Source of the DNA: Prevotella sp.
Lineage (GTDB): Bacteria; Bacteroidota; Bacteroidia; Bacteroidales; Dysgonomonadaceae
DNA: 35,234 nt
Assembly (NCBI GenBank): GCA_031285905.1
Contig: JAITVH010000142.1
Span: 1 to 35,234 of the forward strand
Direction of reading: 5' to 3'
The position numbers and the translations under genes are program-made. Position 1 is the stretch's first letter. Each line of letters begins with the position of its first letter. Under the pieces are notes generated by a model that ran no database searches, had not been told where the DNA came from, and saw only the letters and a list, made by a program, of their open reading frames with translations. Shown here piece after piece: positions 31,083-35,234 of the stretch.

Positions 31083-31490
31083 TTACTTCCACTCGATATA
31101 GTCGACAAATACCTTATCGAACATATCCGGTGCGGCGACTTTGCCGTTTACCAGGCAAACCACCTCAATAACAGCTTTTGCACAAAGCACATTCTCGGGA
31201 ACACGGGTTATATTTTGGTGAAAATAGTAGCGTACTCCCTCGCGGATGGCTGATGCCGTACAAATAAATTCTTCCGAACCCCGCAATGAATTACGGTAAC
31301 TGATGTTTACATTCCTCACCACCGGAATAATATTCGCTTCGGTGAGGTCGCGCAGGCGCAGGCCGCAAAGCTCCATCAACTCGTGGCGGGTAGCCTCGAA
31401 GTAATGCAGATAGATTGCATTATTAACAACACCCTGCGAATCGCATTCGTAATCGCGTACCTTCATTTTGTTTTCAAAAACTTTTGCCAT
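31083..31490 (-). CDS. Acyl-CoA thioesterase, 4HBT/YbgC hot-dog fold (copy 1)
   Basis: I start this 135-residue protein at ATG 31490; the frame extends to a TTG at 31514, but the paralogue at 31990 aligns from here. The hot-dog fold active region MKVRDYECDSQGVVNNAIYLHYFEATRHELM contains the catalytic aspartate and the long central helix of the 4-hydroxybenzoyl-CoA thioesterase family. The strand VVRNVNISYRNSLRGSEEFICTASAI follows. YbgC-like enzymes hydrolyse acyl-CoA, in Proteobacteria in association with the Tol-Pal system. The natural acyl group is unknown. It shares the MKVRDYECD(S/A)QG opening and general layout with copy 2, from which it is separated by one small gene. Confidence 0.87.
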   Translation of the reverse strand: MAKVFENKMKVRDYECDSQGVVNNAIYLHYFEATRHELMELCGLRLRDLTEANIIPVVRNVNISYRNSLRGSEEFICTASAIREGVRYYFHQNITRVPENVLCAKAVIEVVCLVNGKVAAPDMFDKVFVDYIEWK

Positions 31491-31523
31491 AATCTTTAAT
31501 TTGAAAATCAGCAAATGATCTGA

Positions 31524-31989: not shown

Positions 31990-32403
31990 TCATTTTAAAT
32001 ATTTACCCAATATATTGTCAAACAGTTCGGGCTTGCCTACCTTTCCGTTTACCATGCAGGCTGTCTCTACCCGGGCAGTAGAACAAATTTTTCCGTCTTT
32101 TAAACGAGTGATTTTCTGATTGAAAATATAGCGGATACCGTCCTTTTCTATGGAATCGACTGTACAGACAAAATCATTGGCGCCTCGTAGTGAATGCCGG
32201 TAACGTATGTATACGCTTACTACTACGGCATCGATTCCTTCCTCGTGGAGTTCATAAAAATTCAGTCCATGCTGTTCCAGAAATTCATGGCGAACAACTT
32301 CGTAGTAATGCTGATAATTGGCGTTGTTTACAATTCCCTGTGCATCACATTCATAGTCGCGCACTTTCATTTTATATTCGTATATCGATTCTTCTTTTTT
32401 CAT
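31990..32403 (-). CDS. Acyl-CoA thioesterase, 4HBT/YbgC hot-dog fold (copy 2)
   Basis: The 137-residue protein is a paralogue of the product at 31083. The catalytic segment is MKVRDYECDAQGIVNNANYQHYYEVVRHEFL, followed by VVVSVYIRYRHSLRGANDFVCTVDSI and a final strand with TACMVNGKVGKPELFDNIL. The Asp in YECDAQG is the expected catalytic residue. It appears to be the first gene of a four-gene run (copy 2, acidic protein, copy 1, sulfatase). The upstream region has no clear promoter. Two similar thioesterases in one operon may have split acyl-chain preferences or form a heteromer; that is speculation. Confidence 0.87.
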   Translation of the reverse strand: MKKEESIYEYKMKVRDYECDAQGIVNNANYQHYYEVVRHEFLEQHGLNFYELHEEGIDAVVVSVYIRYRHSLRGANDFVCTVDSIEKDGIRYIFNQKITRLKDGKICSTARVETACMVNGKVGKPELFDNILGKYLK

Positions 32404-33714: not shown

Positions 33715-34098
33715 TTATTCTTCTTTGTGCTTCTTTTCCCATATCCGCCTTCTGATCAATGTGTCAACTATCAGTAAGAGGAGGACAACGCATGCAATAG
33801 ATATTACACCGGGATTGAATTGTATATGAGGAAGTGTGAAGTTGAATTCGGTATTAATGTCTGTGTATCCAAGCTGGTTCGTAAACCGTAGCAGTCGGAA
33901 TATCGCAGCAGGAATTCCTATTATACCAAGTATTCCCAAAGCAAGTGCCAGATATGATTTGAGGTTTTTTATCCGGTTTTGCTTTTTTTCAACAATATAT
34001 ATATGTTCCATTAAACGACTTTCAAAGCCGGATGATGGTTCGTCTAATTTCACTTCCTGAAATAAACTCTTAAGCTTGTCTTTATCTTCCGTTTTCAT
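33715..34098 (-). CDS. Small membrane protein, probable anti-sigma or sigma-linked factor
   Basis: The protein has 127 residues. A soluble N terminus of about 47 residues (KLKSLFQEVKLDEPSSGFESRLMEHI) precedes two membrane helices at about 49-66 (YLALALGILGIIGIPAAI) and 94-113 (VISIACVVLLLLIVDTLI). The start ATG overlaps the stop TGA of the ECF sigma gene as ATGA, a typical coupling of sigma and anti-sigma genes. The short cytoplasmic N-terminal domain resembles in position the sigma-binding domain of membrane anti-sigma factors, but no zinc-binding HxxxCxxC motif is present. I infer control of the sigma factor from the overlap, not from homology. Confidence 0.7.
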   Translation of the reverse strand: MKTEDKDKLKSLFQEVKLDEPSSGFESRLMEHIYIVEKKQNRIKNLKSYLALALGILGIIGIPAAIFRLLRFTNQLGYTDINTEFNFTLPHIQFNPGVISIACVVLLLLIVDTLIRRRIWEKKHKEE

Positions 34099-34649
34099 TG
34101 TTGTATGAGTTTATTTATTTCAAAGTTCATAAATTTTCTGATTCTGTGCAACTTTACCTTCACATTTGATACAGAATGCCCGGTGATTACGCTGATATCC
34201 TGTATGGTATGATTATTCATATAAAACATTGTAATCAGCAGGGCATCGTCAGCCGGCATCATCTTTAATACCATATTCAGGTAGTTAAGTTTATCTTCCA
34301 GGCTGATTTCATCAATCTCATCGGAAATATTATCATCGGGTATATTTGCCCAATTATCCTCTATTGCCGAAAACTCATATTTCCTCTTTCGTAGTTCAGA
34401 TATTGTTGTATTATAAGATATCCTGTATAGCCATGTGGCAAAGCCTGAGTCTTCCCTGAATTTGTCGAGTGACTGGAATACTTTTATAAATATCTCTTGT
34501 ACAATATCTTCTGTTTCTACATTACTGGCGACGATTTTGCCGACAATGGTAAACACCATTCTCTGATACCGGCGGACAATATGAGCAAAGGCATCCGTAT
34601 GGCCGTCCTTGATTAGGCGTATATAATAGAGATCGTCAAAATCTGCCAT
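34095..34649 (-). CDS. ECF-type RNA polymerase sigma factor
   Basis: The 184-residue protein is a compact group 4 (ECF) sigma factor. Sigma region 2 spans about residues 16-88, with FAHIVRRYQRMVFTIVGKIV, then the ETEDIVQEIFIKVFQSL segment and the FATWLYRISYNTTISELRKRK promoter-melting part. Region 4 spans about residues 120-178, with LNMVLKMMPADDALLITMFY and the helix-turn-helix TIQDISVITGHSVSNVKVKLHRIRKFM. I use ATG 34649; the frame extends to a TTG at 34664, but that codon lies inside the promoter. The promoter carries the same TGTAACC-N15-CGTCA signature as the divergent gene, so autoregulation is likely. The mRNA would be nearly leaderless. Confidence 0.93.
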   Translation of the reverse strand: MADFDDLYYIRLIKDGHTDAFAHIVRRYQRMVFTIVGKIVASNVETEDIVQEIFIKVFQSLDKFREDSGFATWLYRISYNTTISELRKRKYEFSAIEDNWANIPDDNISDEIDEISLEDKLNYLNMVLKMMPADDALLITMFYMNNHTIQDISVITGHSVSNVKVKLHRIRKFMNFEINKLIQQ

Positions 34650-34656
34650 ACCCGTA

Positions 34657-34683
34657 TGACGCAAAGTTAGGGGATAGGTTACA
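34657..34683 (-). promoter_or_regulatory. ECF-dependent promoter of the sigma factor gene
   Basis: On the minus strand, TGTAACC at 34683-34677, exactly 15 bases, then CGTCA at 34661-34657. An AAC-containing -35 and a CGTC-type -10 are the usual form of ECF promoters. A TAACTTTG housekeeping-like box (34669-34662) overlaps it. Confidence 0.7.
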
Positions 34684-34727
34684 AATGTATGTGTAATTTT
34701 TTTTAGGAAAAATATTTTAACCTGATT

Positions 34728-34754
34728 TGTAACCTTTTGTATTAGCCTGCGTCA
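34728..34754 (+). promoter_or_regulatory. ECF-dependent promoter of the DUF6249 gene
   Basis: TGTAACC at 34728-34734, exactly 15 bases, then CGTCA at 34750-34754. The -35 half matches the sigma gene promoter over 11 bases (ATTTGTAACCT). The leader to the start codon is about 40 bases. Confidence 0.7.
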
Positions 34755-34799
34755 AAATGAGCAGAACGAACAAAAATTGAAACTCTAAAAAATAAAGTT

Positions 34800-35234
34800 A
34801 TGGATGAATTGTCATTAGTATTGGTAACAGGTATTCTTACCTATGGAATTTACAAATTATTTGAATTGTTTGCCCGTCGTAAAGAACGTATGGCCATGAT
34901 AGAAAAACTGTCGACAGGAATAGATCCTCAGATATTGCAATATCAACTGAACCCTATTAAGATTCCTGTATATAAGAAAATGTTGAATGACTCATGGGCA
35001 ATACGCATAGGCTTGTTGCTCGTGGGAGTGGGGCTAGGTGTTATTATTGCCACAAGCATAGATTTGGCGATTTCCCTTTATGAAGGAACCCGTGAGTTGT
35101 ATTATGAATATAAACGGACTATAGATGTTCTTTATCCTTCGTGTGCAGCTGTTTTTGGGGGTATTGGGCTTGTCGCAGCTTACATAATAGAGAAGAAGGA
35201 CGAAAAGAAAGGTTCATCTAAATTGGAAGAATAA
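34800..35234 (+). CDS. DUF6249-type membrane protein
   Basis: The 144-residue protein is complete; its TAA stop is the last codon of the window. An N-terminal helix (about residues 5-24) leads to the cytoplasmic ARRKERMAMIEKLSTG segment, which is the family's signature (KERxAMIEKG). Two more membrane helices follow at about 69-92 (IRIGLLLVGVGLGVIIATSI) and 110-130 (VLYPSCAAVFGGIGLVAAYII), then a Lys/Glu-rich tail. The function of the family is unknown; it is repeatedly seen beside ECF sigma factor genes in Bacteroidetes, as I recall. Here it is divergent from the sigma gene and shares the same promoter type, so it is probably a target of that sigma factor. Confidence 0.82.
   Translation: MDELSLVLVTGILTYGIYKLFELFARRKERMAMIEKLSTGIDPQILQYQLNPIKIPVYKKMLNDSWAIRIGLLLVGVGLGVIIATSIDLAISLYEGTRELYYEYKRTIDVLYPSCAAVFGGIGLVAAYIIEKKDEKKGSSKLEE

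Follow-up and report, generated by a model that had tools for sequence, protein, structure and literature searches.

Among the closest described systems are SigW-RsiW of Bacillus and RpoE-RseA of E. coli, in each of which a small membrane partner is encoded beside an ECF sigma factor whose own gene carries an ECF-type site. SigW promoters are of the AAC/CGT shape. The locus described here shares these traits, combining an ECF sigma factor, an adjacent small membrane protein and an ECF-type site at the gene of the sigma factor itself. It is distinct from both systems in its partner, a protein of 127 amino acids in which two membrane helices are predicted and no domain is recognised, and in its putative target, a divergent DUF6249 gene. 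Within the Bacteroidota, the nearest comparison is with the Das-Dma pair of Bacteroides (ECF21, with a dual membrane-spanning anti-sigma factor) and a similar pair of Phocaeicola, for which the available parts of the sources describe, as here, a Bacteroidota ECF sigma factor with its anti-sigma factor encoded adjacent (PMC13088901, PMC9308784). The anti-sigma factors of those two pairs are described in the same parts as reaching the outer membrane, whereas the partner here, at 127 amino acids, does not fit the description of Dma.

Knowledge of the promoters read by such factors in this phylum is recent. According to the sections of the papers available, no ECF motif was known for Bacteroides thetaiotaomicron in 2020 (PMC7366714), and a 2025 study reported motifs for a few ECF sigma factors (PMC12596196). 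No B. thetaiotaomicron counterpart of the present sigma factor was settled, the candidates looked at being BT0248 and SigH-1. Among the targets listed for SM6 promoters in Flavobacterium psychrophilum are T9SS and Band 7 genes, with neither PspC nor DUF6249 named in the main text. In open-licence full text, the name DUF6249 occurs, among the matches listed, only in work on a bean gene family, and a description of the sigma/DUF6249 module was not found among the matches listed in the open-licence literature.

The window, which is the whole stretch of 35,234 nucleotides that was analysed, is one entire contig (C9) of a draft Dysgonomonas genome (3.65 Mb, 173 contigs, 88% complete). Its final 1.5 kb carries the genes of the probable anti-sigma factor and the ECF sigma factor on the minus strand, and the divergent DUF6249 gene on the plus strand (Table 1). 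The initial annotation had placed ECF-type sites before both divergent genes, and Pfam confirms the identities of the two products. The sigma factor contains Sigma70_r2 (7e-18) and Sigma70_r4_2 (3e-9) and no other family, the region content of an ECF (group 4) protein, and the DUF6249 protein belongs to PF19762, scoring 44 bits against a gathering score of 33. The closest sequence matches of the sigma factor in the PDB are SigW and RpoE, and it scores under the NCBIfam cut-offs for both. At lower coordinates in the window, two similar genes that by eye look thioesterase-like lie on the minus strand (31083-31514 and 31990-32403), either side of a small acidic gene.

Table 1. Features of the sigma/DUF6249 locus, in positions of the window
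Feature	Position	Strand	Remarks
Probable anti-sigma factor gene	33715..34098	-	127 aa, two predicted membrane helices; 4-base overlap with the sigma gene; function inferred from position
ECF sigma factor gene	34095..34649	-	184 aa; ATG 8 bases past CGTC
ECF -10 element CGTC, sigma gene	34658..34661	-	preceding base is G in 108/117 N16 pair sites
ECF -35 element TGTAAC, sigma gene	34678..34683	-	motif match; by script, sigma-side site in 59/63 distinct loci with divergent genes (60 once L013 is restored)
-7 box of the primary sigma (TAnnTTTG), matched by TACATTTG, lying over the ECF -35 element	34682..34689	-	such an overlap in 23/24 genus sigma sites; consensus as given in the available part of PMC7366714
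A/T-rich stretch of 44 bases (A-run/T-run) separating the two -35 boxes; possible shared upstream element	34684..34727		function inferred
ECF -35 element TGTAAC, DUF6249 gene	34728..34733	+	motif match, kept in relatives
ECF -10 element CGTC, DUF6249 gene	34750..34753	+	motif match, kept in relatives
DUF6249 leader, CGTC to ATG	34754..34799	+	46 bases; A-rich part partly conserved in relatives
DUF6249 gene	34800..35234	+	144 aa, predicted membrane protein; stop codon is the contig end

The intergenic stretch of 150 bases from one start codon to the other holds two divergent TGTAACC-N15-CGTCA sites, at 34657-34683 on the minus strand and 34728-34754 on the plus strand. Both lie within ATTTGTAACCT, the spacer from TGTAACC to CGTCA is exactly 15 bases in each, and the site at the sigma factor's own gene has the AAC in -35 and CGT in -10 that mark ECF promoters. 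The initial annotation had reported two copies of identical spacing and judged a chance origin unlikely; a motif search of the window recovered both copies at these positions, and the second point was borne out by randomisation. Shuffling the window 100 times gave no motif match, and when the 150-base gap was resampled 300,000 times under a first-order Markov model, five resamples carried a site on one strand or more and none on both. With 14-16 spacer bases allowed, the draft genome has three matches to the pattern, namely the twin pair and one N16 site at C22:4965.

Conservation of the pair was followed at increasing taxonomic distance. DUF6249 was searched for in 61 genomes and matched in 30, among them 23 of the 25 Dysgonomonas genomes (the one under study counted), and the addition of 61 named loci from the genome collection gave 91 loci, of which 73 were distinct after 18 duplicates were dropped. 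The sigma and DUF6249 genes are divergent in 63 of these 73. By script, 58 of the 63 have the DUF6249 site, 59 the sigma site and 55 the two together, leaving eight loci with one or both absent; one locus (L013) fell outside the range scanned by the script, and with it restored the sigma site stands at 60/63, both sites at 56/63 and the loci with an absence at seven. The DUF6249 site is also kept in seven of the ten loci that have no divergent sigma gene. Although the spacer bases vary, the gap from TGTAAC to CGTC is N16 in 57/59 sigma sites and 60/65 DUF6249 sites. In an order-wide sample of 119 genomes, DUF6249 was matched in 45, from which 29 loci were read, some of the genomes being common to the earlier sets. 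The DUF6249 site is present in 26 of these loci, and 24 of them, from 24 families, have a divergent sigma gene, with the sigma site in 22 and both sites in 21. Absence of the motif from relatives, which the initial annotation had named as the outcome that would count against it, was thus not the pattern seen, the pair being kept in most distinct and most family-level loci. Three order-level genomes with no DUF6249 match still have the site before the sigma gene.

Among 198 genomes sampled across the phylum, DUF6249 was matched in 46, and 29 loci were read out of the 45 matched genomes besides the one under study. In the same class but outside the order, both sites are present in 11 of 20 loci, and in all 11 the spacing is N17 on both sides (L396, L398, L399, L408-L410, L413, L414, L417, L421, L422), as if it had changed with the sigma factor. 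Such a joint change is as expected if one factor reads both sites. A few further loci of the class retain the TGTAACC box with TGTC or TGTA as the -10 element, under a looser pattern. In the nine loci from outside the class, no site was found by the patterns used, though eight of them have a divergent sigma gene. By eye, the spacing from one -35 box to the other seems to group around 25-26, 33-35 and 42-46 bases, possibly through helical phasing. One genome (G012; L083, C5) has a second sigma-side site, belonging to a pair with exactly the same sigma site as genome G015, and may represent a duplicate or contamination.

The gene overlapping that of the sigma factor had been described in the initial annotation as encoding a probable membrane partner. 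This remains reasonable in view of its length of 127 residues and the 4-base overlap, but the protein has no match in Pfam or NCBIfam and so falls in none of the anti-sigma families described there. By eye, some 45 residues precede its first hydrophobic stretch, and a weak structural model (mean pLDDT 70) has helices at 5-14, 25-70 and 96-125. Across 40 sequences, M1 and L108 never vary and F25, M30, D112 and R116 hardly do, and a similar short protein is encoded 3' of the sigma gene in the relatives listed. From its position, the 127-residue protein is probably an anti-sigma factor.

The sigma gene is taken to start at the ATG at 34649, not at the upstream TTG at 34664, because the -10 box falls between them. 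Across the sigma sites, the first in-frame ATG lies at most 14 bases after CGTC in 51/59, and in 18/55 an in-frame stop between CGTC and the ATG excludes an upstream start at those loci. ECF transcription starts some 6-9 bases after the -10 element. An ATG only 8 bases after CGTC would therefore leave almost no leader, and the sigma transcript from the ECF promoter is predicted to be near-leaderless. Leaders this short are uncommon in the phylum: those of fewer than 10 bases make up about 3.7% in B. thetaiotaomicron (PMC7366714, available part) and leaderless transcripts 5.5% in F. psychrophilum (PMC9723704, available part).

The same parts of these two papers give TAnnTTTG as the primary-sigma -7 box of the Bacteroidota (PMC7366714), positioned at -12 to -5 (PMC9723704). 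In Dysgonomonas, with genus membership of the genomes assigned by us, this box lies over TGTAAC in 23 of 24 sigma sites, compared with 6 of 25 on the DUF6249 side (Fisher 1.9e-7, from loci that are related and so not independent), and its two free positions vary among the overlapping sigma sites. Outside the genus, the overlap occurs in 5 of 36 sigma sites, and in 2 of 40, and among the N17 sites considered below in 1 of 58; by these sequence counts, the housekeeping overlap is a feature of Dysgonomonas. A box at -12 to -5 would give a basal sigma transcript with a leader of about 28 bases, and since the box is mostly missing at DUF6249 sites, the DUF6249 gene is predicted to depend on the switch. 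Two points are new here: the short distance from the -10 box to the sigma ATG, from which the near-leaderless transcript is predicted, and the -7 box lying over the ECF -35 element. A second TAnnTTTG (TAACTTTG) was also noted directly 5' of the sigma -10 box, at 34662-34669 on the minus strand; it occurs in one of 23 scored genus sigma sites, namely that of the window itself.

On the opposite side, the DUF6249 start codon lies 43-58 bases after CGTC in 56/65 sites, and the first 20 or so bases of this leader are partly conserved across families (AAA...CAAA.AA..AAA). The structural model of the protein (mean pLDDT 80) has three long helices, at 2-25, 58-92 and 99-142, and a pair of short ones separating the first from the second, and DUF6249 is predicted to be a membrane protein, of putative topology. 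A profile search of the PDB gave no match under E 0.5, and a relationship to LiaF was rejected after hhalign found none.

The initial annotation had also offered the exact motif as a key to the whole regulon, an expectation that did not survive. The genome under study has just the twin pair at N15, and a relaxed form of the motif matches it 11 times, compared with 25 for the reversed pattern. In the 25 Dysgonomonas genomes, 63 sites match the strict pattern TGTAACC-N14-16-GCGTC, and 46 of them are pair sites (from 22 genomes, one with two pairs); exactly two sites are found in 13 genomes. The remaining 17 sites, set against 13 reversed-pattern matches, represent no clear excess, and a whole-regulon reading by the strict motif was rejected for the genus. 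With 17 set against 13 and pair sites in the majority, the proposed loop is nearly closed in Dysgonomonas. One genome (G059) contains six near-identical TGTAACCCCA...TTAG...GCGTC matches, perhaps a repeat element.

A looser pattern, TGTAAC-N15-18-CGTCAWA, behaves differently, with 141 sites across the genus against 24 for its reverse. The distinct sites read number 103 with the pair sites counted, and 58 of them have a spacer of N17, a set that includes some intragenic sites. These are mostly TGTAAC-N17-CGTCATA (L154-L182, L185-L249; in the genome under study, L003:1501 and L040:1501), and their flanks differ from those of the pair: G precedes CGTC in 108/117 pair sites against 9/58, and C follows TGTAAC in 113/117 against 23/58. 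Most intergenic non-pair sites of the looser pattern precede genes that by eye look secreted or envelope-related, and the downstream genes checked in Pfam gave DUF3836, DUF2807 (head GIN), CarboxypepD_reg, a transglutaminase-like domain and DUF4252, one each. Assignment of the DUF3836, DUF2807, DUF4252, transglutaminase-like and outer-membrane genes to this sigma factor was held back, their sites being mostly N17 with other neighbouring bases. With one extra spacer base and other flanking bases, most of the non-pair sites read may belong to another sigma factor. The N17 sites perhaps constitute a second ECF regulon, its -35 element being related to that of the pair, but the twin pair itself is N17 outside the order, which argues against a separate N17 regulon.

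A further group of sites may bear on the phage-shock-type (PSP/Lia) response. In part of the order, stand-alone PspC genes carry a similar site: of the 30 such genes scored, 14 have TGTAAC-N15-17-CGTC at a distance of 14-44 bases from the ATG (13 of 29 without L089, which was included with its site known beforehand), compared with none of 19 PspC domains of internal type, of which one (L342) may be misclassed. These counts derive from 51 loci scored by script, 20 of them hand-picked, mostly for short frames; six of the 51 went unrecognised and unscored, and three of those have a site shortly before the start codon. In the eight loci mapped for gene order, a LiaF-like gene follows PspC, Pfam-checked in one. 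This gene order, preceded by an ECF-like site 17-33 bases from PspC, was seen in several families of the order (L254, L261, L267, L269, L271, L279, L089). One genome with no DUF6249 match (G055) has the site before both its sigma and PspC genes. No link was seen between a PspC site and the presence of DUF6249 (9/18 with a DUF6249 match, 5/12 without), and no site was found upstream of the PspC genes of the genome under study. Classical PSP/Lia systems are run by PspF or LiaRS, unlike the arrangement here, and the available part of the same source mentions sigma-type regulators near PSP partner genes (PMC11237479). Taken with the membrane proteins of the locus, the PspC-LiaF sites make an envelope-stress role plausible.

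The twin sites are very probably promoters read by the adjacent ECF sigma factor, with the 127-residue protein holding that factor and the housekeeping box priming it. The claim in the initial annotation that the sigma factor drives both itself and DUF6249 is well supported by the conservation of the pair and the spacing shared by its two sites, and these real, conserved ECF-type sites are best explained as autoregulation together with control of DUF6249. In the mechanism proposed, the 127-residue protein would hold the sigma factor at the inner membrane until an envelope signal releases it. The freed factor would then transcribe its own operon, starting at the sigma ATG or a few bases ahead of it and amplifying both itself and its inhibitor, and would transcribe the DUF6249 gene in the opposite direction. 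In Dysgonomonas, a housekeeping promoter with its -7 box over the sigma ECF -35 element would supply basal sigma and anti-sigma factor, while DUF6249, mostly lacking such a box, would stay low until the switch fires.

The alternative with most to recommend it, though improbable, is that both sites are read by a different ECF sigma factor encoded in this genome, making the module a target and not a self-contained switch. The genome is rich in ECF genes (14 matches to one ECF query), and a second ECF family of the genus, seen in three relatives, has TGTAAC-N16-CGTA (L283, L284) or TGTAAC-N16-CGTCA (L282) upstream of its own gene, so a paralogue could read the twin sites; the 58 N17 sites, too, have TGTAAC and CGTC in common with the pair. 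The flanking bases by which pair and N17 sites differ tell against this, as does the constancy with which the sites keep company with this sigma gene across families, and the joint shift of spacing on both sides.

It is far less probable that the TTTG within ATTTGTAACC belongs to a housekeeping promoter, with the ECF likeness secondary. The fit of TACATTTG to TAnnTTTG, and its recurrence over TGTAAC in nearly all sigma sites of the genus, would be accommodated by this reading; the scarcity of the fit at DUF6249 sites and in other genera, where TGTAAC-N16-CGTC nonetheless persists, would not, and the CGTC at fixed spacing is left unexplained. Least credible of all is that a repressor or activator uses the two sites as its operators and that neither is a promoter: two separated conserved boxes could bind a protein, but each site is a directional box pair with ECF spacing, pointing at its gene, and on the sigma side the distance to the start codon falls in a narrow range.

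Reading by the adjacent sigma factor is thereby preferred, and a broader picture may be sketched around it, which we hold tentatively and with more doubt than conviction. A class-wide Bacteroidota switch may combine an ECF sigma factor, a minimal two-helix anti-sigma factor and a dedicated DUF6249 protein, forming a near-closed loop in Dysgonomonas and a controller of PspC-LiaF in other families, where the ECF factor would replace PspF/LiaRS. In Dysgonomonas, a housekeeping promoter whose bases are merged with those of the ECF -35 element would prime this switch. For the Bacteroidota, the pair suggests a promoter code for a sigma factor that is kept across many families, and the twin promoters provide a testable lead to the function of DUF6249. 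The overlap of housekeeping and ECF elements, if true, would represent a compact means of priming an autoregulated switch.
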